64,000 nt of DNA. Source: an uncultured Fodinibius sp. (GTDB lineage Bacteria; Bacteroidota; Rhodothermia; Balneolales; Balneolaceae). The position numbers were made by a program, and so were the translations under genes. Below are positions 30,793-64,000 of this stretch, piece after piece (within the stretch, counting starts at the first letter, position 1; every line of letters starts with the position of its first letter). A model generated the notes under the pieces. That model did no database searches. It was not told the DNA's origin and was given only the letters and a program-made list of their open reading frames with translations. Location of the stretch: the NCBI GenBank assembly GCA_913056455.1, contig CAJXMJ010000003.1:124001-188000 (forward strand). The letters run 5' to 3'.

Positions 30793-31344
30793 ATGAAAGC
30801 TTTAAAAATTGTACTGTTACTGCTAATATCACTTGCAATATTAGCAGCAAACTCAGTTTTAAATCCTGAAAAAACAATATCAGATAAAGTGGCTGAGAAA
30901 GAAGATCTTTCAACGTTATTAACTGCTTTAGAAGCAGCTGATTTAGTTGAAGTCTTTAAAAGTGAAGGACCTTATACGGTGTTCGCTCCTACGAACAAGG
31001 CATTTAACAATTTACCTAAAGGTAAACTTGAGAGTCTGCTGAAAGCCGAGAATAAAGAAGAGCTTATCAAGATTCTCAAATATCATGTCTTTGCTGGGAA
31101 AATCCATGCTGGCGATATTGGTGAAGAAACTATGATTGAGACGTTAGAAGGAACTCAACTCAAACTCACGGCTCAAAGCTCAGCAGGTGAATACATGGGT
31201 GATGAGGTTCAAGCGATGAATAAAGTTATGGTTAACAATGCTATTGTGATCGAAGCAGATATTATGGCATCAAATGGTGTGATCCACATTATAGATGGTG
31301 TTGTTATGCCTACAGATATGGAAGTACTGGGAGCAAAAGATTAG
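30793..31344 (+). CDS. exported fasciclin (FAS1) domain protein 1
   Basis: The 183-residue protein has an N-terminal hydrophobic signal (about 4-20) and one FAS1 domain (about 35-175). Key FAS1 motifs are L-L-T-A-L-E-A-A-D-L, then G-P-Y-T-V-F-A-P-T-N-K-A-F (near 56-68), L-K-Y-H-V (near 95) and the terminal G-V-I-H-I-I-D-G-V-V-M-P. FAS1 domains mediate adhesion or matrix contacts. The product is a clear paralogue of the next gene, so the two arose by tandem duplication. There is no lipobox. Confidence 0.92.
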   Translation: MKALKIVLLLLISLAILAANSVLNPEKTISDKVAEKEDLSTLLTALEAADLVEVFKSEGPYTVFAPTNKAFNNLPKGKLESLLKAENKEELIKILKYHVFAGKIHAGDIGEETMIETLEGTQLKLTAQSSAGEYMGDEVQAMNKVMVNNAIVIEADIMASNGVIHIIDGVVMPTDMEVLGAKD

Positions 31345-31418
31345 CAAATCTTTCCTAAAATAAGGATGGAAATATATTCGCATCCCCAAATAATGCTTCT
31401 TGTTAGAAGAAATAAAAA

Positions 31419-31447
31419 GGCCGGAGAAATTTAAGAAATCTCCGGCC
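31419..31447 (-). terminator. hairpin with T tract on the minus strand, between the fasciclin genes
   Basis: The perfect 9-bp stem GGCCGGAGA (31419-31427) / TCTCCGGCC (31439-31447) has an 11-base loop. On the minus strand it is followed by five T residues, while the plus strand has none. No minus-strand gene is visible that it would terminate. It may instead act as an RNA structure on the plus strand, or mark an antisense transcript. Confidence 0.5.
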
Positions 31448-31457
31448 CAAGTGAATG

Positions 31458-31487
31458 GTGATCAATGTAATAGCGTTAATCGATCAC
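31458..31487. repeat. inverted repeat in the fasciclin spacer
   Basis: GTGATC (31458-31463) and GATCAC (31482-31487) are perfect complements separated by 18 bases. This is the second of three consecutive pairings in the spacer. Confidence 0.4.
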
Positions 31488-31489
31488 AA

Positions 31490-31518
31490 TGCCAAACATT
31501 AAATAAGAATGTTTGGCA
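31490..31518. repeat. 11-bp hairpin upstream of fasciclin gene 2
   Basis: TGCCAAACATT (31490-31500) and AATGTTTGGCA (31508-31518) form a perfect stem with a seven-base loop, 34 bases before the second fasciclin ATG. No T tract follows. It is a likely 5' untranslated structure or operator. Confidence 0.6.
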
Positions 31519-31552
31519 ACTCACAATCCTAAATAAAAAATAGAAGGTAAAT

Positions 31553-32089
31553 ATGAAGCTTTCAAGAACTTTAGCATTAATGCTGGTAGCCGTTGTGTTA
31601 GTGGCGTTTACACAAAATTCCGTAACCGAGCAAAAGATTGATCACCATAATAAAATTGTATCAATTGCGCAGGATACCGACCAGTTGTCTACTTTAGTGA
31701 CTGCTGTAAAAGCAGCTAATCTGGTTGAAACATTGAATGGAGAAGGCCCTTTCACAGTTTTTGCACCTACCAATCAGGCATTTAGTAATTTGCCGGATGG
31801 TACGCTAGATATGCTGCTGAAAGAAGAAAACAAAGGGCAGCTGCAGAGTATTTTAACATACCATGTGGTTTCCGGGAAAATTATGGCTTCCGATCTTAAG
31901 GACGGGCAAATGGTAGAAACCGTTCAAGGGAATAAAATCAAGGTTTCGTTGTCTGACGGGGCGATGATAAATGGTGCCAAAGTAGTGAAGGCAGATGTTG
32001 AAGCATCAAATGGTGTAGTTCACATTATTGATGCAGTAGTTATGCCATCTGACAATGAGAAAAAAGAAGATATGGACTCAGGTTATTAA
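31553..32089 (+). CDS. exported fasciclin (FAS1) domain protein 2
   Basis: The 178-residue protein has a signal-like N-terminus (about 5-20) and one FAS1 domain (about 40-170). It carries L-V-T-A-V-K-A-A-N-L, G-P-F-T-V-F-A-P-T-N-Q-A-F, L-T-Y-H-V-V-S-G-K and G-V-V-H-I-I-D-A-V-V-M-P. It is closely similar to the gene 208 bases upstream. The role is probably adhesion or cell-surface contacts, as is known for FAS1 domains. A strong terminator follows 25 bases after the stop. Confidence 0.92.
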   Translation: MKLSRTLALMLVAVVLVAFTQNSVTEQKIDHHNKIVSIAQDTDQLSTLVTAVKAANLVETLNGEGPFTVFAPTNQAFSNLPDGTLDMLLKEENKGQLQSILTYHVVSGKIMASDLKDGQMVETVQGNKIKVSLSDGAMINGAKVVKADVEASNGVVHIIDAVVMPSDNEKKEDMDSGY

Positions 32090-52966: not shown

Positions 52967-53193
52967 AGCAGTCTCCTCAATTATACTGGGTTATAATTTT
53001 GTGGATCTTTCTATGGAGCCCCACCCCGACTATTGTTTTGAATAATGTTAGAAAGAAAAAAATGAATTGCAACTGCCCGACTGGATCAGCAAATAGCTGA
53101 AAAGAAAATAAATGTCATTTTGTTTGCAAAAATTTCAAAAGTTTCAAATTATAGGACTGCACTTTAGCACAGTAGTAATTATCAATATTATTT

Positions 53194-53679
53194 ATGTCAA
53201 AGAATAGAGATCTTACCCAACAGATTGTAGCTGATTTTGCTGAGGGATACAGTAATTTTGGGCTGAATCCATTAATGGGGCGCATAGTAGGACTCCTAAT
53301 TATATCCAAAGACCCACAATCGCTCGATGATATTGTTGAACAGCTGGAGATGAGCAAAGGGCCCATTTCACAAATTTGTCGGCGCCTTAAGGAACGCGGA
53401 CTGATTGAGAAAGTTTGGATTCCAGGGGATCGCAAAGATTATTATCAAGCAACAGATGATATTTTTGGCAAGGCCTATGCCAACCAGATCAATAAGATGC
53501 AGGGTAACATAGAGATTGCGGAAAAATATCTTACCATGGCTCAATCGATGGATTCAGAGAATGCTGAGTTCATTAAAAAGCAGATGAAAGTTATGAAATC
53601 CTTTTATGAGCTAATGGATGAGTACAATAAAAAGTTTGTTGAGGCGTGGGAGGAAAAGCATGAGGAATTAAGGGAGTAA
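53194..53679 (+). CDS. GbsR/MarR-family transcriptional regulator
   Basis: The 161-residue protein has a winged-helix DNA-binding domain (about 28-95). Its recognition-helix region is S-L-D-D-I-V-E-Q-L-E-M-S-K-G-P-I-S-Q-I. A wing follows with W-I-P-G-D-R-K-D-Y-Y, then a long charged C-terminal helix. That pattern matches the GbsR subgroup of MarR-like regulators, which often sense small metabolites. It lies 55 bases upstream of the hydrolase-SDR-KAS III operon on the same strand. It may regulate that operon and the divergent cyclase gene; this is inference. Confidence 0.87.
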   Translation: MSKNRDLTQQIVADFAEGYSNFGLNPLMGRIVGLLIISKDPQSLDDIVEQLEMSKGPISQICRRLKERGLIEKVWIPGDRKDYYQATDDIFGKAYANQINKMQGNIEIAEKYLTMAQSMDSENAEFIKKQMKVMKSFYELMDEYNKKFVEAWEEKHEELRE

Positions 53680-53734
53680 TTTTTTTATTGATTATCGTTT
53701 GGAACTTTTCAAATATTTAATAAATTAATTTTCT

Positions 53735-54691
53735 ATGACTGATAAAAAACGAAATACAGTATTTTTATTAGGCTGTATACTGTTTCTGGTCTTTTCTTCA
53801 GGCAGTATACAGGCTCAGGTTTCCCGTTTTGCAGATCTGGATTACCCCTATTCCGTTCAGTATCAACAGGTAGAAGATGGACAAGAGGTTGCCTATGTGG
53901 ATAAGGGGCGTGGACCGGCGGTCATCCTTATTCATGGTCTCGGTAGTTACATTCCTGCCTGGAAACAGACGATCCCTGCATTATCTGAAAAGTATCGTGT
54001 AATCGCGTTAGACTTGCCCGGATTTGGCAAGTCATCCAAAGATATAGAAGCTTACTCGATCCCGTTTTTTGTTAAAACAGTGGCAAGCCTGCAAGATTCC
54101 TTAGGGATTGAAAAAGCTGCGTGGGTTGGACATTCCATGGGGGGGCAAGTTGCGTTGCGTGCAGCGATAAGTTATCCAGAGAAAATCAGTAAGCTGGTAT
54201 TGTTAGCTCCTGCCGGGTTCGAAACCTTCACGGAACAGGAAGGCACAATGATGAGCAATTTTGTAACGCCTGAATCTGTTAAGCATACTCCCGATTCCCT
54301 CATCAGCCAGACCTTTAAGGCAACGTTTTTTGATTTCCCAAAGGAGGCCCAGTTCATGATAGACGACCGGGTAGCTATTCGATTAGCAGAAAATTTTGAT
54401 GGTTATGCCCGAGCCTATGCTGGGTCAGTACAGGCCATGTTGGATGGACCGGTATTGGGAGAGTTATCAAGTATATCACACCCGTCGCTTATCATTTTTG
54501 GTAGACAGGATATGCTGATTCCAAACCGACAGCTCCACCCTAATTTATCTACAAAAAAAGTAGCGGAATCGGGACATGAGAAATTGCCAAACAGCCAGCT
54601 AAAGATGGTCGATAAGGCCGGGCATTTCATTCACTTTGAGCAGTCAGAAATAGTAAACAAAGAGATTCTAAATTTTTTAAATGACAAATAG
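53735..54691 (+). CDS. exported alpha/beta hydrolase
   Basis: The 318-residue protein has a signal peptide ending I-Q-A-Q near residue 28 and an alpha/beta hydrolase domain. The oxyanion segment is L-I-H-G-L-G-S near 65-71. The nucleophile elbow is G-H-S-M-G-G near 133-138, the acid is in G-R-Q-D-M-L-I-P near 257-264, and the His is in K-A-G-H-F-I-H near 298. It probably acts as a periplasmic or surface esterase/lipase. It is the first gene of the operon and lies three bases before the SDR gene. Confidence 0.85.
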   Translation: MTDKKRNTVFLLGCILFLVFSSGSIQAQVSRFADLDYPYSVQYQQVEDGQEVAYVDKGRGPAVILIHGLGSYIPAWKQTIPALSEKYRVIALDLPGFGKSSKDIEAYSIPFFVKTVASLQDSLGIEKAAWVGHSMGGQVALRAAISYPEKISKLVLLAPAGFETFTEQEGTMMSNFVTPESVKHTPDSLISQTFKATFFDFPKEAQFMIDDRVAIRLAENFDGYARAYAGSVQAMLDGPVLGELSSISHPSLIIFGRQDMLIPNRQLHPNLSTKKVAESGHEKLPNSQLKMVDKAGHFIHFEQSEIVNKEILNFLNDK

Positions 54692-54694
54692 ATT

Positions 54695-55438
54695 ATGGCG
54701 GATTTCACAGGAAAAATAGTATTAATAACAGGCGGTGCCGGTGGCATTGGTCGGGAGACGGCCCAACAATTTTTAGATAAGGGCGCCCATGTTGAACTAT
54801 GGGATATGGATAAGGAAACCGGTGATAAGATAGTAACGAAATGGGCAAATGACGGTCACAAAGTTCATTTTGAAAAGGTGGATGTCACCGATTTTGATGC
54901 CGTAAAGCAAGCAATGAGCAATCTGAAGGAACGCTGGGGAGAGTTAGATGTACTGATTAATAATGCCGGAATAACACGCGATGCTACACTTAAGAAAATG
55001 AGTCCCGACGAATGGCAGCAGGTCGTAGATGTAAATCTAAACGGTGTGTTTTACTGTGGAAAGGCGGCAGCAGAGTTAATGAGGGAGCAGGAGTCGGGCG
55101 TTATCCTCAATGCCAGTTCCGTTGTAGGAGTATATGGGAATTTTGGACAAAGTAATTATGTAGCCACGAAGTCCGGTGTAATCGGTCTTACCAAGACATG
55201 GGCCAGGGAGCTTGGTCGAAAAGGCGTGCGCGTCAATGCTGTAGCACCCGGATTTATTGAGACGCCGATGGTCAATACTGTTCCCGACAAGGTATTAGAG
55301 AAATTAAAAGGGCAGACGCCTTTGGGACGCCTCGGAAAACCGGAAGACATCGCTTCGGCGTATGTCTTTCTGGCTTCCGAGCAGGCAGCCTTCATTACCG
55401 GAACCGTACTGCAAGTGGATGGGGGGCTCGTATTTTAA
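54695..55438 (+). CDS. FabG/PhbB-like short-chain dehydrogenase
   Basis: The 247-residue SDR has the cofactor motif T-G-G-A-G-G-I-G near 10-17 and N-N-A-G near 90. The catalytic Ser is near 141 in N-A-S-S-V-V-G and Y-V-A-T-K is near 155-159. The I-T-R-D-A-T-L-K-K-M segment and the V-D-G-G-L terminus match the 3-oxoacyl-reductase/acetoacetyl-CoA-reductase group, usually NADPH dependent. A 3-hydroxyacyl/3-oxoacyl conversion is the likeliest reaction. Its last base is the first base of the KAS III-like start codon. Confidence 0.9.
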   Translation: MADFTGKIVLITGGAGGIGRETAQQFLDKGAHVELWDMDKETGDKIVTKWANDGHKVHFEKVDVTDFDAVKQAMSNLKERWGELDVLINNAGITRDATLKKMSPDEWQQVVDVNLNGVFYCGKAAAELMREQESGVILNASSVVGVYGNFGQSNYVATKSGVIGLTKTWARELGRKGVRVNAVAPGFIETPMVNTVPDKVLEKLKGQTPLGRLGKPEDIASAYVFLASEQAAFITGTVLQVDGGLVF

Positions 55439-56427
55439 TGGGATATTCCAAAATTATTGCAAGTGGTTCATACGCCCCCGAGCAGGTTATTAAAAATGAA
55501 TGGTTCAATGAGCAGCTGGGTGAGGACGTCGATACCTGGCTCCGCGAAAATCTAACGATACGCGAGCGTCGGTGGATGGAGGAAGATCAGTCGACCAGTG
55601 ACCTGTGTGTAGAAGCAGGTAAAGCGGCATTGGATATGGCAGGTCTTCAGGAAGAAGACATCGATCTGTTGATTATAGCCACCGATACTCCTGATTTTAT
55701 TTCACCTTCAACCGCATCGGTAGTACAGCAAAAGATGGGATTGGTGAATGCAACCTCGCTGGATACCAATACCGCCTGCGCGGGCTTTCCCACGGCATTG
55801 ACAATAGCCAATAGTATGATGGTTGCCGATGAGGTCTATAAAAAGGTAATGGTGATTGGAGCTTACGGGATGAGTCGGTTTTTAGATCTGAATGATAAAA
55901 AGACGGTTACGCTTTTTGCTGACGGAGCCGGAGCAGTAATATTAGAGCCTGCAGAAAATAAAGATGAAGGATTTTTAGCTTCTGACTTACGGACGAAACC
56001 GGAGTATTATAAGCACATGGGTATTTATGGAGGTGGCGCAGCTGCTCCCGCAGCGCGAAGTGAGTCGAAGGGTGGAATGCAGTGTCTTCAGTTTGTTGAG
56101 AAGTTTCCCAAGGAAATCAATCCAAAAGTGTGGACCGAAATGATTCGGACCGTAGCTCAAAAAGGGAATTTTGATACGAATGATATTGCCGGTGCTTATA
56201 TGACACAGATAAATATCAACCAGATTTGGGAGACGATGGATAATCTTTCATTGAAGCGTGAGACAGCTCCAACTATTATGGACAAGTTTGGTTATACCGG
56301 TTCGGCAGCTATCCCGATGGTGTTCGATAAGGCACTTCGCAGTGATTCGATTTCAAAAGGCGATATTTTAGTATTTGTAGGATCCGGTGGAGGACTCCAT
56401 TTCGGAGCCTGTGCCTATAGATGGTAA
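55438..56427 (+). CDS. KAS III-like (FabH-family) enzyme with altered catalytic triad
   Basis: The 329-residue protein has the thiolase fold of 3-oxoacyl-ACP synthase III. The nucleophile is C114 in the usual N-T-A-C-A-G-F context. In FabH the other two residues are His in P-H-Q-A-N and Asn in G-N-T-S-A-A-S. Here the matching positions read M-T-Q-I-N-I-N, with Gln257 for His, and F-G-Y-T-G-S-A-A, with Tyr286 for Asn. Lack of these residues argues against normal decarboxylating condensation. It overlaps the SDR gene by one base (TAATG), so the products should be made together. The substrate is unknown. Confidence 0.82.
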   Translation: MGYSKIIASGSYAPEQVIKNEWFNEQLGEDVDTWLRENLTIRERRWMEEDQSTSDLCVEAGKAALDMAGLQEEDIDLLIIATDTPDFISPSTASVVQQKMGLVNATSLDTNTACAGFPTALTIANSMMVADEVYKKVMVIGAYGMSRFLDLNDKKTVTLFADGAGAVILEPAENKDEGFLASDLRTKPEYYKHMGIYGGGAAAPAARSESKGGMQCLQFVEKFPKEINPKVWTEMIRTVAQKGNFDTNDIAGAYMTQININQIWETMDNLSLKRETAPTIMDKFGYTGSAAIPMVFDKALRSDSISKGDILVFVGSGGGLHFGACAYRW

Positions 56428-56442
56428 TCTAATTACAATGTT

Positions 56443-56491
56443 ATCCTGAGCTTTGCTGAGCTAAAATAAGAAATACCAATTTGATCAGGAT
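56443..56491. repeat. intergenic repeat relic with ATCCTGA/TCAGGAT arms
   Basis: ATCCTGA (56443-56449) and TCAGGAT (56485-56491) are perfect complements within the 84-base spacer of the operon. Together with GCTTTGCTGAGC it resembles a decayed intergenic repeat of the ATCCTGAGC type. No T tract is present, so it should not fully stop transcription. Confidence 0.45.
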
Positions 56492-56511
56492 CTAATAGTA
56501 AACTATAAATA

Positions 56512-58062
56512 ATGGAATTAGCGTCATCATCAATGGTAACAGCAGGCTGGGTGCTTATCCTGTGCTATGCTGGAGTAATCCTATATTTTGTTATTCGTGG
56601 TGCGGGCCAGACCAAAGAGATGGACGATTACGCGCTTGGCAGTGTATTGTTTTCGCCCACTGCCGTAGGACTTTCATTGGCGGCCTCCATAACCAGTGCG
56701 GCGACGTTTATTATCAATCCCGGTTTCGTTTCGCTGTATGGATTTAGTGGCGTTATTGCTATGGGATTGGCACTCCCGTTGGCAACACTGGGTTCGCTCA
56801 TCTTGTTTACCAAGGGGTTTCGGAATTTTGGGACCAATGTCAAAGCTCTGAGTATGGCCGACTGGATCCGAAAAATGTACGACAGCCGACGCTTTGGAAT
56901 TCTGTTCGGATTTCTTTCTTTCCTGCTTATTACGTTTATCGTTCTTATTTGTGTGGGTCTTACTAAGGTACTTGCAAGTACCCTCAATATCAGAGAATTT
57001 TACGTTCTGTTGGGCATCGTCATTTTTATTTTTGGATACATGATGTACGGTGGTGCGAACTCTATGGTGTATACCAATACCATTCAAGCCATCCTTATGG
57101 TCATTGTCGCAATTATGTTATTGGGATCGGGATATGATCACTTTAGTAATGGTGTAACCGGTTTCATGGAGAAGCTCAATGCTATAGACCCGAAGCTTAC
57201 ACAGCTGACCAACGACAGCAGCTTTCTGTTTCGTGATTACTTCGAGATTTTTGTGGCACCATTTATTGTGGGTATCGCCATCGTTTGTCAGCCGCACATT
57301 CTGACGAAATCACTTCTCCTGGATCGCGAAGAAGATGTGAATCGCTATTTGATTGTCGGTATCACGACGCAATTCTTATTCTTTTTAGTAGTAATTGCAG
57401 GACTTTATGCACGAATTAGTTTTCCTGATTTATCAGTAGATGGTGAAGCCCTTGCTATGGATGGCATTGTTTCGGCGTATGTCGTTAAAGAATTTAAGGT
57501 TGCTATAGCCCTTATTATTGTATTGGGATTAATTTCAGCTGGTGTATCAACGCTTGAGAGTCTTATTCAGTCACTTTCTACTTCTATCACCAATGATATT
57601 ATCGAGCCCTTGTTCGGGAAAGGAATTTTTGAAAAAGATATTTTTGGTCTCCCGGCCAAGCTGGTGTACAATCGTTTTGTGATTGTGGCTATGGGGATCG
57701 TTACCGTGTTTCTATCCTGGCAGCAGTTGGTTAATCCAAAGTTAAGCGTGGGTATTTTTGCCCAAAACGGAGTTTATGCCTACTTCTCAGCAGCTTTTGT
57801 CCCTATTTTGATGGGCATGTTTTTTAAGAATGTCCCCAAAGAAGCGCCCATTTGGGCTTCTCTTGTAGCGGTTACCGTGCACTTTACGGTGTACTACGGA
57901 CAGATTCGCGTACCGTTTTCTGAGGCCGATGGCGAAAATCCTGCCGTTGCAGCAGCTTTGGCTATTACAAGTGCGGTTATGGCAGGATTTGCTATCTACG
58001 CGATAAAGAACAAAGGCATTCAACTTCGAAGTGATAACGAGAAAGCAACAGCCTCGGTATAG
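56512..58062 (+). CDS. sodium:solute symporter (SSS family)
   Basis: The 516-residue protein has about 13 hydrophobic helices and the SSS/PanF-like layout. An N-terminal helix is followed by the S-L-A-A-S-I-T-S-A-A-T-F segment near 57-66, which forms part of the sodium and substrate site. The Y-G-G-A-N-S-M-V-Y-T-N segment near 180-190 is typical. SSS carriers take up acetate, other monocarboxylates, pantothenate or proline with Na+. Within this operon a carboxylic acid is plausible. It lies 84 bases after the KAS III-like gene and three bases before the acyl-CoA ligase. Confidence 0.9.
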   Translation: MELASSSMVTAGWVLILCYAGVILYFVIRGAGQTKEMDDYALGSVLFSPTAVGLSLAASITSAATFIINPGFVSLYGFSGVIAMGLALPLATLGSLILFTKGFRNFGTNVKALSMADWIRKMYDSRRFGILFGFLSFLLITFIVLICVGLTKVLASTLNIREFYVLLGIVIFIFGYMMYGGANSMVYTNTIQAILMVIVAIMLLGSGYDHFSNGVTGFMEKLNAIDPKLTQLTNDSSFLFRDYFEIFVAPFIVGIAIVCQPHILTKSLLLDREEDVNRYLIVGITTQFLFFLVVIAGLYARISFPDLSVDGEALAMDGIVSAYVVKEFKVAIALIIVLGLISAGVSTLESLIQSLSTSITNDIIEPLFGKGIFEKDIFGLPAKLVYNRFVIVAMGIVTVFLSWQQLVNPKLSVGIFAQNGVYAYFSAAFVPILMGMFFKNVPKEAPIWASLVAVTVHFTVYYGQIRVPFSEADGENPAVAAALAITSAVMAGFAIYAIKNKGIQLRSDNEKATASV

Positions 58063-58065
58063 ATT

Positions 58066-59556
58066 ATGAATTACAACAACTGGCTTACAAAAAGAGAGCG
58101 ATATGCGCCGCAGAAAGAGGCTGTGATTGATACAGTTGGTGGCAAGCGGTATTCGTATCAAGAGCTCAATCAAAAAGCGAATCGACTGGCAGGATACCTG
58201 CAGCAGGAATGCGGGTTGAAAGCAGGAGACCGTCTGGCGGTTGTCTCAAAAAATAATGTCGAATATGTGATCCTATTTTTTGCCTGTGCCAAGGTTGGAG
58301 TGATTATGGTGCCGTTGAATTATCGATTGCCGAAAGCCGGGCTGAATGAACTGTTGGAGGATGCAGATCCTCACTTGGTTGTTTATTCTGATGAGTTTTC
58401 TTTTGTGAAAGAGGATACTGCCGAAGTTGTTTCGTTTAATTCGATTGCAAAGGTTTTGGACAGTTCTCAGCAAGATCTTGAATTATATGAGGCTGATGCC
58501 GAAGACATTGCCATGATTCTGTATACGTCGGGCACGACAGGGAAGTCGAAGGGAGCGATGATCTCATGGCGGCAGATTCACTGGAATTCCATAAATACTG
58601 AGATTAGCCTTGAGCTTACCGGACAGGATTGTGCTTTCGTCAACACGCCTTTCTATCATACCGGTGGCTGGCATGTCCTTTTGATGCCGCTTATCCACCA
58701 CGGAGGAAAACTGGTGCTACAGCGTGAGTTTGATGCTGCTGAATGTAATGAGCTTATTGAAAAAGAGGGTATTACCATTCTGTTTGGGATTCCTACGATG
58801 CTTCGAATGATGATGGAGGAGTCCAATTTTGATGAAGTAGATACAAGCAGTGTTCGATTTGCGATATGTGGGGGCGAATCGTGTCCCATTCCCATTATTA
58901 ATCGCTATAAAGAGAAAGGAATTCCTATCCGCCAGGGATATGGATTGACAGAGGCAGGCCCTAACTGTTATTCATTACCGGCCGAGGATGCCATTCGCAA
59001 AAAGGGATCCGTAGGCTTTCCGAACTTCCATATTGGGGTTAAAATTGTGAATGATAACAATGAGGAGGTTCCGCAGGGAGAAGTGGGCGAACTGCTGATG
59101 AAAGGTCCGCATGTGTTTGCCGGCTACTGGAAAAATCCGGAAGCCACCGAAGAAAATATTGATGAGGGCTGGGTACATACGGGCGACTTGTTTCGCTGCG
59201 ATGATGACGGCTACTATTATATGGTGGGACGTAAGAAAGAGATGTATATCAGCGGCGGAGAAAATGTATATCCCGTGCAGGTTGAAAAAGTTATTTACGA
59301 GCATGACGCCGTTGCGCAAGTGGCCGTTATTGGCGTGCCCGATGAGCAGTGGGGCGAAACCGGATGCGCTTTTGTGGTCCTCAAGGATGATGCTTCTTTG
59401 ACAAAGAATGAGTTGCAAAGCTATTGTCGGGAGTATCTGGCCGGATATCAGATACCAAAGCATATATTCTTTAAGGATTCGCTGCCGATCGGAGATTCAA
59501 ATAAAATCCAGAAGCGTGATCTGGAAGAAGAATTTAAGGAGATAATGCATGAGTAG
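58066..59556 (+). CDS. class I acyl-CoA synthetase (AMP-forming)
   Basis: This ATP-dependent ligase joins a carboxylic acid to CoA through an acyl-AMP. The 496-residue protein has the AMP-binding motif Y-T-S-G-T-T-G-K-S-K-G near 152-162 and the G-Y-G-L-T-E-A-G-P motif near 290. H-T-G-D-L-F near 370 and G-R-K-K-E-M-Y-I-S-G-G-E-N-V-Y-P near 385-400 follow. The C-terminal Lys lies in K-I-Q-K-R-D-L. It is complete. The pattern suits a medium- or aromatic-acid substrate; which acid is not known. Eight bases overlap the next hydrolase gene. Confidence 0.92.
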   Translation: MNYNNWLTKRERYAPQKEAVIDTVGGKRYSYQELNQKANRLAGYLQQECGLKAGDRLAVVSKNNVEYVILFFACAKVGVIMVPLNYRLPKAGLNELLEDADPHLVVYSDEFSFVKEDTAEVVSFNSIAKVLDSSQQDLELYEADAEDIAMILYTSGTTGKSKGAMISWRQIHWNSINTEISLELTGQDCAFVNTPFYHTGGWHVLLMPLIHHGGKLVLQREFDAAECNELIEKEGITILFGIPTMLRMMMEESNFDEVDTSSVRFAICGGESCPIPIINRYKEKGIPIRQGYGLTEAGPNCYSLPAEDAIRKKGSVGFPNFHIGVKIVNDNNEEVPQGEVGELLMKGPHVFAGYWKNPEATEENIDEGWVHTGDLFRCDDDGYYYMVGRKKEMYISGGENVYPVQVEKVIYEHDAVAQVAVIGVPDEQWGETGCAFVVLKDDASLTKNELQSYCREYLAGYQIPKHIFFKDSLPIGDSNKIQKRDLEEEFKEIMHE

Positions 59557-60625
59557 AATCAACCATCTTCCGGGAATATCGTCGCAGTTTATAGAAACCA
59601 GCCGCTTGAGCATGCATCTGCTTACGGTAGGCAGTAAACAGAATACACCAATGTTATTTTTGCACGGTAATACGTGTACTTCCACGATATGGGAGGAGTT
59701 CATGCTGCGATTTGCAGATGAGTTTTATTGTATTGCACCCGACCTGCGTGGGTTTGGAGACACCGAAAAAAAAGTTATTGATGCAACACGAGGTATCGGG
59801 GATTGGCTGGATGATATAACGGCACTTATTAAAAAAATGGATCTGTCCCCATTTCACCTGGTGGGACATTCATTGGGTGGTTTTGTCTGTTGGGGACTTA
59901 TTGCACGGCATGCGGCAGATATTTTAACAGTAACGCTTATTTCTCCGGGTCCTCCGATGGGATTCGGCGGCATCCACGGTGAGCAGGGGGAGGCTAATAA
60001 TCCTAATTATTCGGGTTCCGGAGGAGGTATTGTTGTGGATGCATTTGCTGATCGATTAATTGCGGGCGACCGTTCGAAAGATCATCCCCTGTATTCGCCC
60101 AGAAATATGATGAATAGGCTTTTTTGGAAAGAGGGGTTTAAAGCGGACCGCGAGGATGATATTCTCACGGCGATGTTGCAAATCCATACCGGGGATAAGC
60201 ATTATCCCGGCGATTCTGAGAAATCTGAATACTGGCCGGGTGTGGCACCGGGTAGATATGGGCCTGTGAATGCGCTTTCACCGAAGTATAATAAAACGTT
60301 GTTGAACAATTTTTTAAATGCCGAACCCAAGCCCCCACTACTGTGGATACATGGCAAGGATGATAATATCATTTCGGATACATCTTTTTCGGATCCGGGG
60401 TATCAAGGTAAAATGAGTTTGCGAGGGGGTTGGCCTGGTGAGGATAAGTATCCGCCCCAGCCAATGGAATCACAGATTAAATACAGCCTTGCTGAATATC
60501 AGTCGAAGGGAGGTAGGGTTTATCGTAAGAAAATAAGCGATTGTGGTCATACACCTTTTATTGAAAAGCCAGATATAACGAACCAGGCACTATTGAATCA
60601 TGTCCAAAAAATCATAAAACAATAA
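59549..60625 (+). CDS. alpha/beta hydrolase without signal peptide
   Basis: The 358-residue protein has the alpha/beta hydrolase fold. The oxyanion segment L-F-L-H-G-N-T-C-T is near 37-45, and the nucleophile elbow G-H-S-L-G-G is near 109-114. The acid is in H-G-K-D-D-N-I near 268-274 and the His in D-C-G-H-T-P-F near 334. There is an insertion region between 150 and 260, probably a lid domain. Without a signal peptide it should act in the cytoplasm, unlike the first hydrolase of the operon. A cytoplasmic thioesterase, lactonase or esterase role is possible. Confidence 0.85.
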   Translation: MSRINHLPGISSQFIETSRLSMHLLTVGSKQNTPMLFLHGNTCTSTIWEEFMLRFADEFYCIAPDLRGFGDTEKKVIDATRGIGDWLDDITALIKKMDLSPFHLVGHSLGGFVCWGLIARHAADILTVTLISPGPPMGFGGIHGEQGEANNPNYSGSGGGIVVDAFADRLIAGDRSKDHPLYSPRNMMNRLFWKEGFKADREDDILTAMLQIHTGDKHYPGDSEKSEYWPGVAPGRYGPVNALSPKYNKTLLNNFLNAEPKPPLLWIHGKDDNIISDTSFSDPGYQGKMSLRGGWPGEDKYPPQPMESQIKYSLAEYQSKGGRVYRKKISDCGHTPFIEKPDITNQALLNHVQKIIKQ

Positions 60626-60733
60626 TTTTTTTCGGAATAGTATTTGAAAGTTTTAAAAACTTTGATAACCATAGAAGTAAAGTATGTAGATTTTCAACCT
60701 TAATAATAAATCCCAACAAAAAGGGGAATACCT

Positions 60734-63205
60734 ATGAAAATACAATCAATAATAGCAGTGTTTTGCTTTCTGTTGTTCTCGGCGATGGGGGCGACAGCGC
60801 AAAATACAGGGACTATAGAGGGTACGGTAACAGACCAAGAATCCGGAGAGGTGATGCCGGGTGTTAATGTTGCTCTAATCGGGACCACGAAAGGAGCAGC
60901 AACGAATGAGGCCGGCGAATATGCAATTACAGAAGTTGAGCCGGGTACTTATACCGTAAAAGCAACGTACTTGGGCTATGCCACATTCGAGAGCGATGAA
61001 TTAACGGTAGAGGCGGGCGAAACGGTCACGCTTAATATCGGTTTGGAACAAACGGTGTGGCGTGGCAATGAAGTGGTAGTATCCGGATCACGCAGACCGG
61101 AAAAGCTGCTTGAATCGCCGACAACCATTGAGCGGGTTTCCCTGGAGGATATCGAAACCTCAGGCGGATCTACATTTATGTCTACGCTGTCGAATTTAAA
61201 AGGGGTTAACTACACCAATGCCGGTATGAATACGCAGTTGATTTCTGCCCGTGGGTTTAACAGCAGCTTTAATACACGTATGCTGTTTCTAATTGACGGT
61301 CGACTGGCAACTCTCGGTGGTACAGGGTTGCCGCAGGGTAACTTCTTGCCGTCCAGTAAAATTGATTTAAAAAGCATAGAGGTGGTGTTAGGACCTGCAG
61401 CTGCACTCTATGGACCCAACTCAGGTTCGGGGGTAGTAAATGTAACTACGAAAGATCCTTGGGACCAGTCCGGTGTAGCAGTTGAGGCACGAGCGGGGAA
61501 TCAGTCGCTTCGTGATATCAATTATCGTATAGCCGGGACAGTGAACGAGAATTTCGGCTACAAAGTGACCGGTCAATATATGCAGGCCGTTGATTTTAAA
61601 CCTCAGCGTGAAGATAGCCTACATTTCTATCAGGCAGCCGGGACAAAACCTACCGCTGCAAATACAGTATTTGAAACCGATGTAGTTGAAGATTACGATG
61701 TAGGGGCGACTAAGATTAATGGATCACTGTATTACAAATTAGGTGATTGGAAAGTGAGCGGTACCTATGGATGGTCGTCGACTGATCAATTTTCACTGAC
61801 CGGAAACGGACGTAATCGTATTGAGGATTGGCAGGTAGATTACCAGACATTCCAGGTAAGCCATGCGAATTGGTTTGCACAGGTTACTCGTACCGGGAAT
61901 AAGGCGGGAAGTTATCAATTGAACCAGGTAGTACCAGCCGTGCAAGCGATGGTGAATGCCGGTATGTCGCTAGATCAGATTGATATTGAAAGCATTCGGG
62001 AAAGCGTTGCTTTTATCGATGATACCGAAATTTATGACTCAGAACTACAATACAACGACCAGTTCGGTGATTTGAATGTAGTAGCGGGAGTGAATTACCG
62101 AAATTACTTGCCGGAGTCGCAGGGAACGTATCTCGCAGATGGACAAGGACAGGATATAAGTCGTGAGTTGTTCGGCGGGTATGCGCAACTTGATTACGAT
62201 GTAGTGCCAGACAAACTGCAGCTGGTAGCAGCGGCACGCGTAGATGCCAATACTGATTATGATACACAGTTTAGTCCCAAGGGGTCGGTTGTTTATACCG
62301 CCGTGCCGGGACACAATATTCGTGCGACATATAATCGTGCATTTACAACACCAACAATCCTGCAGAGTCATGCCTATATACCAGTACCTGATCTATTTGC
62401 ACCGGGATATTCGTTTCTAATTGGCGGTAATACCGAGGGATATACTATTGAAGATCCTTCGGGCAATGTTGTAAATACGATTGACCCTACTTCACCGGAA
62501 GAAGTTAATTCTATGGAATTAGGCTACAAAGGAGCTTTTGGAGAGAAGCTTTTTATCGATGTGGTAGGATATTATTCGTGGTATCAGAATTTCATTGGTA
62601 CGGATGTTGTTGCCGATGGAATCAATACTGTCGCATATCGTAATGGAGAACAAGTAATGGTAGATGGTAGCACTTTCACAGCCTTGCAAACCTATATTAA
62701 CTTTGGAGAGGCTGAGGTGCAGGGCTTCGATCTTGGATTAAATTACTACTTCAACGATCGATACAGTATGAATGCAAATTTATCTACGATCAAGTTGGTT
62801 GATTTCACAAATGAGACTACCGATGCTCAGCTGCCGTTGAATACACCACCCCTAAAAATTAAGGGTGGATTTACAGCTAAACAGCTCTTTGACAGTGATG
62901 CACTTCGAAATCCTTTTGTTAAGATCAACGGTCGCTGGCAAGACAGTTACCAGTTTCTATCCGGCTACTGGAATACGAATGTCTTGTTGGATGATAATGG
63001 GGATTTTACGGATAAAGAAGAGCTTCCTTCAAAGTTTGAGCTCGATGTTTCGCTTGGATTCGATGTTATGGATACCGGTCTTTCATTACAGGCCAGTGTA
63101 AATAATGTGTTCGATACTGAGAAAGTAGACCAGCTGGGAACTCCACCGATGGGACGTACATTCTGGATATCCCTCAAGTATAACTTCGAGGGGCTGCGCT
63201 TATAG
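60734..63205 (+). CDS. TonB-dependent receptor with carboxypeptidase-like N-domain
   Basis: The 823-residue outer-membrane protein has a signal peptide ending T-A-Q near 23, a carboxypeptidase-regulatory-like domain (about 27-105) and a plug domain (about 120-240). The plug shows F-L-I-D-G-R near 190 and V-L-G-P-A-A-A-L-Y-G-P-N-S-G-S-G near 218-233. A C-terminal barrel ends in the usual aromatic strand. There is no SusD partner, so it is a classic TBDT, not a SusC. It follows the hydrolase gene by 108 bases and is probably the outer-membrane entry step of the same pathway. Confidence 0.9.
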   Translation: MKIQSIIAVFCFLLFSAMGATAQNTGTIEGTVTDQESGEVMPGVNVALIGTTKGAATNEAGEYAITEVEPGTYTVKATYLGYATFESDELTVEAGETVTLNIGLEQTVWRGNEVVVSGSRRPEKLLESPTTIERVSLEDIETSGGSTFMSTLSNLKGVNYTNAGMNTQLISARGFNSSFNTRMLFLIDGRLATLGGTGLPQGNFLPSSKIDLKSIEVVLGPAAALYGPNSGSGVVNVTTKDPWDQSGVAVEARAGNQSLRDINYRIAGTVNENFGYKVTGQYMQAVDFKPQREDSLHFYQAAGTKPTAANTVFETDVVEDYDVGATKINGSLYYKLGDWKVSGTYGWSSTDQFSLTGNGRNRIEDWQVDYQTFQVSHANWFAQVTRTGNKAGSYQLNQVVPAVQAMVNAGMSLDQIDIESIRESVAFIDDTEIYDSELQYNDQFGDLNVVAGVNYRNYLPESQGTYLADGQGQDISRELFGGYAQLDYDVVPDKLQLVAAARVDANTDYDTQFSPKGSVVYTAVPGHNIRATYNRAFTTPTILQSHAYIPVPDLFAPGYSFLIGGNTEGYTIEDPSGNVVNTIDPTSPEEVNSMELGYKGAFGEKLFIDVVGYYSWYQNFIGTDVVADGINTVAYRNGEQVMVDGSTFTALQTYINFGEAEVQGFDLGLNYYFNDRYSMNANLSTIKLVDFTNETTDAQLPLNTPPLKIKGGFTAKQLFDSDALRNPFVKINGRWQDSYQFLSGYWNTNVLLDDNGDFTDKEELPSKFELDVSLGFDVMDTGLSLQASVNNVFDTEKVDQLGTPPMGRTFWISLKYNFEGLRL

Positions 63206-63225
63206 TAACTTCTTTAGCATTGATG

Positions 63226-63262
63226 AAAAGCCTGCTTCGGTAATCGGAGCAGGCTTTTTTTA
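63226..63262 (+). terminator. rho-independent terminator after the TonB receptor
   Basis: The 11-bp stem AAAAGCCTGCT (63226-63236) / AGCAGGCTTTT (63248-63258) is perfect and is followed by further T residues. It ends the uptake operon before the GntR regulator. Confidence 0.92.
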
Positions 63263-63338: not shown

Positions 63339-64000
63339 TTGAAAACCTCTGCAAAATATATAGCTGATCGCATCCGCCTGATGATTGCAACCAAGCAGTT
63401 CCAGGTGGGCGAAACTTTGCCGTCGACCCGTGAGCTGGGTCAACAGCTTGAATCCAGTTTCCATACGGTTCGAAAAGCGTATCATATTTTAGCAGACGAA
63501 GGACTTATTCGCGGAGAACGTGGTAAAGGCTTTATCGTAGAAAGGCAGAATACGAATCTCGACAAAGCAGATCGGCTTGAAATTGGGGCTGAGAAGATGC
63601 GAAAGCTCTTGGAAGAGTTGATTGGCTATGGGCTGGATGAATCAGAAATTGATGAGTTATTTCAGGAACAGCTTAGCTTTATGGATTGGCCCGATCGTAT
63701 TGAAACCTGTGCCAGTATTGGCGAAACCAACGAGCTTGGACACATGCTGGCGGAGGCTATTAAAAAAGAAGTGGGAGTCCGTAGTAAAATTTTAAATGCT
63801 AATCAGTATAACGAAACGGTTAAGTTTGATGCCCTTTTTGTACCGGTTCAACTGGTAAATAAGTTTCGGGGATTTGCCGAAAAAGGTCGGCTGTTACCCA
63901 TTGTGTATAACATCAATCCCGATACGCTATTATCTATTGTGGATCGTGCAGCCATTGACACTATAGGGTTAGTAACATCTGATGATCAGTCAATACCCAA
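63339..64000 (+). CDS. GntR-family transcriptional regulator (cut by window end)
   Basis: The frame runs from a TTG at 63339 past the window end without a stop, giving about 220 residues. An in-frame stop lies 18 bases upstream, so the TTG is the first possible start. Residues 1-68 form a GntR winged-helix domain: Y-I-A-D-R-I-R-L-M-I, then L-P-S-T-R-E-L-G-Q-Q-L, V-R-K-A-Y-H-I-L-A-D-E-G-L-I and G-K-G-F-I-V. The remainder is a long helical region and an alpha/beta-like start, not an MFS or aminotransferase domain as far as seen. Its target is unknown; the adjacent TonB operon is a natural guess. Confidence 0.85.
   Translation, partial: MKTSAKYIADRIRLMIATKQFQVGETLPSTRELGQQLESSFHTVRKAYHILADEGLIRGERGKGFIVERQNTNLDKADRLEIGAEKMRKLLEELIGYGLDESEIDELFQEQLSFMDWPDRIETCASIGETNELGHMLAEAIKKEVGVRSKILNANQYNETVKFDALFVPVQLVNKFRGFAEKGRLLPIVYNINPDTLLSIVDRAAIDTIGLVTSDDQSIP

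Follow-up and report, generated by a model that had tools for sequence, protein, structure and literature searches.

Near the end of a 64,000-nucleotide stretch of DNA from an uncultured Fodinibius sp. (contig CAJXMJ010000003.1; the whole stretch is called the window here), eight open reading frames (ORFs), all on the + strand, span positions 53194-63205. They encode a GbsR-type regulator, two alpha/beta hydrolases, importers for both membranes, a coenzyme A (CoA) ligase, a FabG-type short-chain dehydrogenase/reductase (SDR) and a KAS III-like protein, and the question that they raise is what such a set takes up and what it does with it. The gene set is a conserved unit. The answer proposed for its function, to which we give slightly less than an even chance, is that the operon would serve the GbsR-controlled catabolism of a carboxylic-acid ester, with a small (R)-3-hydroxy acid as the likeliest acid and the KAS-like protein acting by retro-Claisen cleavage. 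This proposal builds on the gene set, its conservation, the exchange of parts, a candidate operator and changes of catalytic residues, all read from sequence, and from these we infer the direction of the pathway, each reaction, the binding of the regulator and the substrate.

Conservation was assessed in genomes of the same phylum. A first draw of 148 genomes contained 31 with an orthologue of the KAS-like protein at an identity of at least 46%, other FabH-type matches listed reaching at most 36%; a larger draw of 395 genomes (E 1e-70) contained 57, the most distant being G243 at 42% identity. Among named organisms, the nearest relatives found were Aliifodinibius salipaludis and Fodinibius halophilus, with KAS-like proteins 92% and 83% identical to that of the window. 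Within the window's genus, 4 of the 9 genomes listed in the larger draw carry the orthologue, and the operon is therefore an accessory trait. The surroundings of the gene were fetched for all 57 KAS-bearing genomes, and 14 parts were scored in each by tblastn with analyst-chosen thresholds; the 57 loci include close relatives, so the counts are not independent events. The parts of the window are as follows, with the number of loci in which a match was found.

53194-53679, + strand: GbsR/MarR-type regulator, 161 amino acids (aa); MarR_2 above the Pfam cut-off; match in 50 of 57 loci.
53735-54691, + strand: exported alpha/beta hydrolase, 318 aa, with Ser134-Asp259-His297; Abhydrolase_1; match in 53 of 57 loci.
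54695-55438, + strand: FabG-type SDR, 247 aa, with Asp37 ending the second strand; NF004198 and NF009466 above cut-off; 54 of 57 loci.
55438-56427, + strand: KAS III-like protein, 329 aa, with Asp83-Cys114-Thr256-Tyr286; assigned by Pfam, alignment and structure model.
56512-58062, + strand: sodium:solute symporter (SSF/SSS), 516 aa; PF00474 above cut-off; a major facilitator superfamily (MFS) carrier instead in 10 of 57 loci.
58066-59556, + strand: acyl-CoA ligase (AMP-binding), 496 aa; PF00501 and PF13193; 55 of 57 loci.
59549-60625, + strand: cytoplasmic alpha/beta hydrolase, 358 aa, an optional part; Pfam; match in 11 of 57 loci.
60734-63205, + strand: TonB-dependent receptor with a carboxypeptidase-regulatory-like N-terminus, 823 aa; Pfam.

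The eight genes, their positions, strand and families, as given in a preliminary description of the window, are borne out by the ORF map and by Pfam and NCBIfam profile scans, and all six junctions that it quoted are reproduced from the ORF coordinates: 3 bases between exported hydrolase and SDR, a 1-base overlap of SDR and KAS, 84 bases between KAS and symporter, 3 bases between symporter and ligase, an 8-base overlap of ligase and cytoplasmic hydrolase, and 108 bases between cytoplasmic hydrolase and TonB receptor. A seventh spacing, absent from its list, is the 55 bases between gbsR and the exported hydrolase gene.

The neighbours stay together in relatives, the point on which the preliminary description had staked its idea. 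A complete set, consisting of SDR, KAS-like protein, CoA ligase, exported alpha/beta hydrolase and exactly one inner-membrane and one outer-membrane importer, is present in 50 of the 57 loci. The seven incomplete loci comprise four that are cut by contig ends (L061, L085, L086 and L088) and three from one genus that lack the SDR (L070-L072); every locus in which the exported hydrolase (four) or the ligase (two) is unmatched lies at a contig-end cut. A chance neighbourhood of unrelated genes, which the commonness of each family by itself might suggest, is refuted by this completeness and by the concentration of operator sites at the operon described below. The idea of an uptake and acyl-conversion locus, in which an ester would enter through the outer membrane and be cleaved, and import across the inner membrane would precede CoA activation and redox chemistry, is supported as one conserved locus. 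Its optional neighbours are beta-oxidation-like: four loci have a MaoC hydratase and six a thiolase that resembles acetyl-CoA acetyltransferase; a seventh thiolase match (L075), 39% identical and 8 kb distant, was not counted as a neighbour.

The importers are exchanged one for one. The inner-membrane carrier is a sodium:solute symporter in 46 loci and an MFS carrier in 10, with both in none, and for the outer membrane 18 loci have a TonB receptor and 36 a barrel with a lipoprotein, again with both in none; one locus of the barrel type (L086) has a weak TonB fragment nearby on the other strand (99 aa, 55 bits, below the chosen threshold). The barrel (∼520 aa) and its lipoprotein partner (∼170 aa) were always scored together (for example L058:4219-5769 and L058:5939-6442), and the members scanned, two barrels among them, gave no Pfam family over cut-off. 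A model of the barrel (predicted local distance difference test score, pLDDT, 78.8) matches AlgE with a Foldseek E value of 1.8e-18, but with a template-modelling (TM) score of about 0.5-0.65 and 12-13% identity; the barrel of the relatives may resemble AlgE/OprD-type channels. In L063 (13622-14548) the lipoprotein partner is internally duplicated, as judged by eye in the translation. Two loci of one genus, L050 and L065 (genomes G127 and G046), carry clearly different operon versions, of the barrel and the TonB type, with KAS-like proteins 60% and 51% identical to that of the window, which suggests transfer.

A more distant relative extends the exchange to CoA activation. The Chloroflexota plasmid L079 (CP069395.1, 11176-22870) carries the SDR-KAS pair at 53% and 42% identity, together with a CoA-transferase, a thiolase, a Zn-ribbon OB-fold protein, a hydrolase and an importer of the branched-chain ATP-binding cassette (ABC) type, with no ligase nearby. 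One-for-one exchange of importers and of the CoA-activating enzyme around a constant SDR-KAS core would fit a pathway for one substrate class.

The first gene of the operon encodes a MarR-type winged-helix protein (PF12802, 29.4 bits over a cut-off of 27) that stays far below the CudC choline-regulator equivalog (58.8 of 218 bits). Upstream regions of gbsR share a palindrome, TTTGAAA-NN-TTTCAAA (TTTGAAANNTTTCAAA), which is a candidate operator. A loose half-site score reaches its maximum in 18 of 50 gbsR upstream regions; no resampled sequence out of 1000 does so, and among 384 other genes the share is 0.8%. The window contains three copies.

53133-53148, no strand: candidate operator 1, TTTCAAAAGTTTCAAA, upstream of gbsR; 1 mismatch to TTTGAAANNTTTCAAA; counterpart in 4 of 4 same-genus genomes.
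53698-53713, no strand: candidate operator 2, TTTGGAACTTTTCAAA, between gbsR and the hydrolase gene; 1 mismatch; in 4 of 4 same-genus genomes.
60643-60658, no strand: candidate operator 3, TTTGAAAGTTTTAAAA, upstream of the TonB receptor gene; 1 mismatch; counterpart in 4 of 4 same-genus genomes.

With at most one mismatch, TTTGAAANNTTTCAAA occurs 69 times in the 57 loci; 60 of these sites are intergenic and precede an operon gene by no more than 150 bp (24 SDR, 21 gbsR, 8 TonB, 4 hydrolase, 2 thiolase and 1 ligase), while five control patterns give 0 to 2 operon matches. Columns outside the search pattern extend the palindrome by CG before and CG after, each base present in 33-40 of the 60 sites. 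The candidate operator is found in 37 of 50 gbsR-bearing loci and in none of the seven scored gbsR-negative (Fisher p = 0.0003, relatedness ignored; the gbsR-negative list and the co-occurrence table were typed in from the tblastn scoring). In L096, one of these seven, a weak GbsR match is truncated at the start of the stretch, which makes the gbsR-negative count 0 of 6, and the 13 gbsR-bearing loci with no candidate operator at this stringency speak against overly tidy counts. A genome-wide scan of 30 of the 57 operon-bearing genomes gives 33 perfect sites, 26 of which lie in the operon locus, compared with three occurrences of the reversed pattern. Six of the 30 genomes, that of the window included, have no perfect site, and G093 has perfect sites only away from the operon. 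Among the seven perfect sites elsewhere, six lie inside ORFs of simple ORF maps; the other, in G022, lies on another contig than the operon, 68 bp upstream of a gene for a TonB receptor 45.6% identical to that of the window, the operon of G022 being of the barrel type. On this reading, GbsR would control the operon through the candidate operator.

The unusual enzyme of the operon is the KAS III-like protein. It passes the cut-offs of PF08545 and PF08541 (ACP_syn_III) and falls short of both NCBIfam FabH models, TIGR00747 (211.8 of 292.1) and, narrowly, NF006829 (244.4 of 249). Its structure model (pLDDT 90.8) has FabH structures as top matches in Foldseek and VIA-align, with a VIA-align Z of about 45, and the protein keeps the FabH fold. 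The E. coli FabH triad is given as Cys112-His244-Asn274 in the extract of PMC11801535. Across the 58 members of the KAS-like family, Asp83, Cys114 and Tyr286 are invariant and Thr256 is present in 57, with Ser in one; Thr replaces the FabH His and Tyr the FabH Asn, so that the Cys-His-Asn triad is lost. The FabH proteins of 20 of the same genomes keep both His and Asn in 20 of 20 cases and have Val, Ser or Ile in the Asp83 column. In FabH, His and Asn serve decarboxylation and Cys carries the acyl group. With Cys kept and His and Asn replaced, the KAS-like protein could form an acyl enzyme and should not decarboxylate malonyl substrates, which makes the condensation named in the preliminary description unlikely. 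The position of Asp83 is one that we take to correspond to the catalytic Glu of HMG-CoA synthase. In a quick tree all 58 KAS-like proteins group together, with low branch support (0.21), beside a FabH clade supported at 0.99.

Six of the 57 loci encode a second KAS III-like protein (L067:13516-14538, and also L068, L086, L092, L093 and L096). It has Glu at the Asp83 column in six of six cases and a Cys-Cys motif in five, scores above the PRK06840 cut-off in L067, and has CerJ and ChlB3 among its solved relatives; these two we take to be KAS III-fold acyltransferases.

Acyltransferases of this fold are known, and the same catabolic operon could use its KAS III-like protein to transfer the CoA-bound acyl group to an acceptor (O, N or S) or to hydrolyse it, with no cleavage of a C-C bond. 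This possibility, which we regard as unlikely though well worth keeping in view, agrees with an invariant Cys114 in the absence of the FabH His and Asn, and with the separate thiolase found by the operon in 6 of the 57 loci and in the Chloroflexota cluster. Against it, no acceptor or carrier protein was seen among the nine genes of the window that were scanned, and the invariant Asp and Tyr would suggest acid/base chemistry on carbon.

The SDR bears on the direction of the pathway. It passes two NCBIfam FabG models, NF004198 (309.5 over 296) and NF009466 (263.9 over 222), and stays just below TIGR01830 (296 of 297.75), with NF004197 and others also below. Asp37 ends the second strand in all aligned sequences, which come from 54 distinct sources; the printed alignments of the SDR (55) and of the exported hydrolase (50) count the protein of the window twice, also as L078, leaving 54 and 49. 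An Asp at this position usually indicates NAD in the SDR superfamily, and its presence in all aligned SDRs would point to NAD and hence to oxidation. FabG-type enzymes act on (R)-3-hydroxyacyl thioesters, which makes (R)-3-hydroxy acids the simplest acids that close the pathway. The family names FabG and KAS III, and the two FabG models passed by the SDR, might be taken for a biosynthetic or signalling locus in which the pair makes a small acyl product that is exported, modified and re-imported. Such a role is very improbable in our view, given the loss of the FabH His and Asn, an Asp37 that points to NAD, transporter families that are typical importers, and nine scanned genes with no acyl carrier protein among them.

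The exported hydrolase keeps its Ser-Asp-His triad in all 49 loci aligned. A lipobox-like motif, sought with a simple pattern, is present in 26 of the 49, so that the site of cleavage may be the outer membrane or the periplasm and not, as in the preliminary description, the outside of the cell; the match in the window's own protein is probably spurious. The nearest solved relatives of the ligase are annotated as fatty-acyl-CoA synthase and feruloyl-CoA synthetase.

The latter annotation would suit the catabolism of an aromatic ester, for example a hydroxycinnamoyl ester, by a CoA-dependent beta-oxidative route. The importers may hint in the same direction: two MFS carriers were scanned, and aromatic acid/H+ symporters are the top-scoring family for one and come second to D-galactonate transporters for the other, both far below cut-off, while the importer on the Chloroflexota plasmid belongs to the branched-chain ABC type. 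Set against this are the MaoC hydratase found in just 4 of 57 loci (other hydratase families were not sought) and the scatter of ring-degradation genes, with PaaA/C over cut-off in 11 of the 30 operon-bearing genomes searched and an intradiol dioxygenase likewise in 11 of 30 (other ring-cleavage routes were not covered); the window's genome has PaaA/C and no match to an intradiol dioxygenase. We consider an aromatic substrate improbable. In these 30 genomes the operon is not linked to PaaA/C, to intradiol dioxygenases or to polyhydroxybutyrate (PHB) depolymerases of PF10503.

The proposed catabolism of a hydroxy-acid ester would run in six steps. The TonB receptor, or the AlgE/OprD-like barrel and lipoprotein of relatives, would carry the ester across the outer membrane; the exported hydrolase would split it; the Na+ symporter, or an MFS or ABC system, would import the acid; and the ligase would convert it to an acyl-CoA. 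The FabG-type SDR would then use NAD+ to form a 3-ketoacyl-CoA, on which the KAS III-like protein would form an acyl-Cys and perform a thiolase-like retro-Claisen reaction, with Asp83 and Tyr286 as acid/base. Substrates might be PHB-like oligomers or other hydroxy-acid esters, and FabG/FabH chemistry would run in reverse. A bolder claim, about which we are rather doubtful, is that the KAS III-like proteins, descended from FabH, form a new catalytic class in which an Asp-Cys-Tyr site serves to cleave 3-ketoacyl-CoA, and that a FabG/FabH pair of fatty-acid synthesis now works as an (R)-specific, GbsR-regulated route for the use of hydroxy-acid esters, with importers exchangeable at both membranes.

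Several observations weigh against the hydroxy-acid-ester proposal. PF10503, the family of PHB depolymerases and esterases, is over cut-off in only 10 of the 30 operon-bearing genomes, with no match in the window's own. The thiolase beside the operon in six loci means that the KAS step may be something else, and L070-L072 do without the SDR altogether. NAD use and (R)-stereospecificity are taken from the FabG family in general, and the solved relatives of the ligase do not point to short hydroxy acids. The unlinked site of G022, the sole one in front of a gene, names no substrate. The operators of the window's genus are imperfect: in its four genomes the one-mismatch pattern occurs 28 times (11, 5, 6 and 6) compared with 19 for the reversed pattern (5, 7, 4 and 3), and 12 of the 28 are the operon's, three per genome. 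One-mismatch sites outside the operon do not outnumber those of the control, and the outside sites inspected, four of eight in the window's genome and one in G274, all lie inside ORFs.

The operon appears to end behind the TonB receptor gene, where the following feature was found.

63225-63259, + strand: intrinsic-terminator-like stem of 16 pairs with a T run, between the TonB gene and a GntR gene.

The region has 10 terminator-like sites where shuffled sequence would lead one to expect 8.6, but this stem is the longest of them. The GntR ORF begins at 63339 and runs beyond the end of the window (full protein, 297 aa), and it is followed by an AAA/helicase gene of 660 aa (window 63339-64000 and L078:12340-15327). 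The GntR gene does follow the operon, as the preliminary description held, and is left out of it here because of the strong terminator-like stem, the AAA/helicase next to it and the locus L101, one of the four of the same genus, in which no GntR gene stands behind the operon. GntR and AAA/helicase thus appear to be a separate pair behind a terminator, and the plural "regulators" does not hold, the GbsR-type regulator being the one inside the operon. Elsewhere in the window (30793-32089), two adjacent, similar exported proteins of ∼180 aa look by eye like fasciclin-domain proteins.

A comparison with known systems places the locus as a regulated uptake-and-catabolism operon of a known kind with one unusual enzyme. 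The KAS III-like protein shares with FabH the fold, the length and a nucleophilic Cys at the equivalent place, and differs in its His to Thr and Asn to Tyr changes, its added Asp, its scores below the FabH cut-offs and its place in an import operon. With HMG-CoA synthase and thiolases it has the thiolase superfamily in common; the Glu-Cys-His of HMG-CoA synthase is not found here (Asp and Cys, with Thr at the FabH His position), and the sequence is nearer to FabH. Bacillus subtilis GbsR and OpuAR are likewise GbsR-type MarR regulators with an A/T-rich inverted-repeat operator, here a candidate one; the present locus has no osmoprotectant genes, a catabolic-type operon and a 2-bp spacer in the candidate operator, whereas the half-sites of the B. 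subtilis GbsR operator are 4 bp apart according to the extract of PMC7396694. Polysaccharide utilisation loci of the SusCD type also combine a TonB receptor with a cleavage enzyme, an importer and a regulator; the nine proteins scanned here include neither SusD nor glycan enzymes, and CoA chemistry takes their place. The OleABCD system unites a KAS III-fold protein, an AMP ligase, an SDR and an alpha/beta hydrolase as well, but the SDR here is of the short FabG type and importers are present. Olefin synthesis by OleABCD was rejected on the type of the SDR (247 aa, FabG type) and on the KAS residues; the His and Asn of OleA and the extended-SDR features of OleD, as we take them to be, are absent from the KAS-like protein and SDR of the window. 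A description of this gene set was not found in the open-licence papers searched, in agreement with the preliminary description, which did not recognise a described pathway.

A 2018 survey of GbsR proteins (PMC6207618) states that the gene neighbourhoods of the Bacteroidetes members do not add up to a consistent picture. The locus provides one Bacteroidetes GbsR group with a consistent operon and a testable candidate operator. It also marks a FabH-derived family in which the KAS III domains are kept and two of three catalytic residues are replaced. The import and breakdown of the ester would be modular, around a core SDR-KAS pair that is also present in another phylum. If the retro-Claisen cleavage holds true, the family would show a biosynthetic condensing enzyme becoming catabolic.

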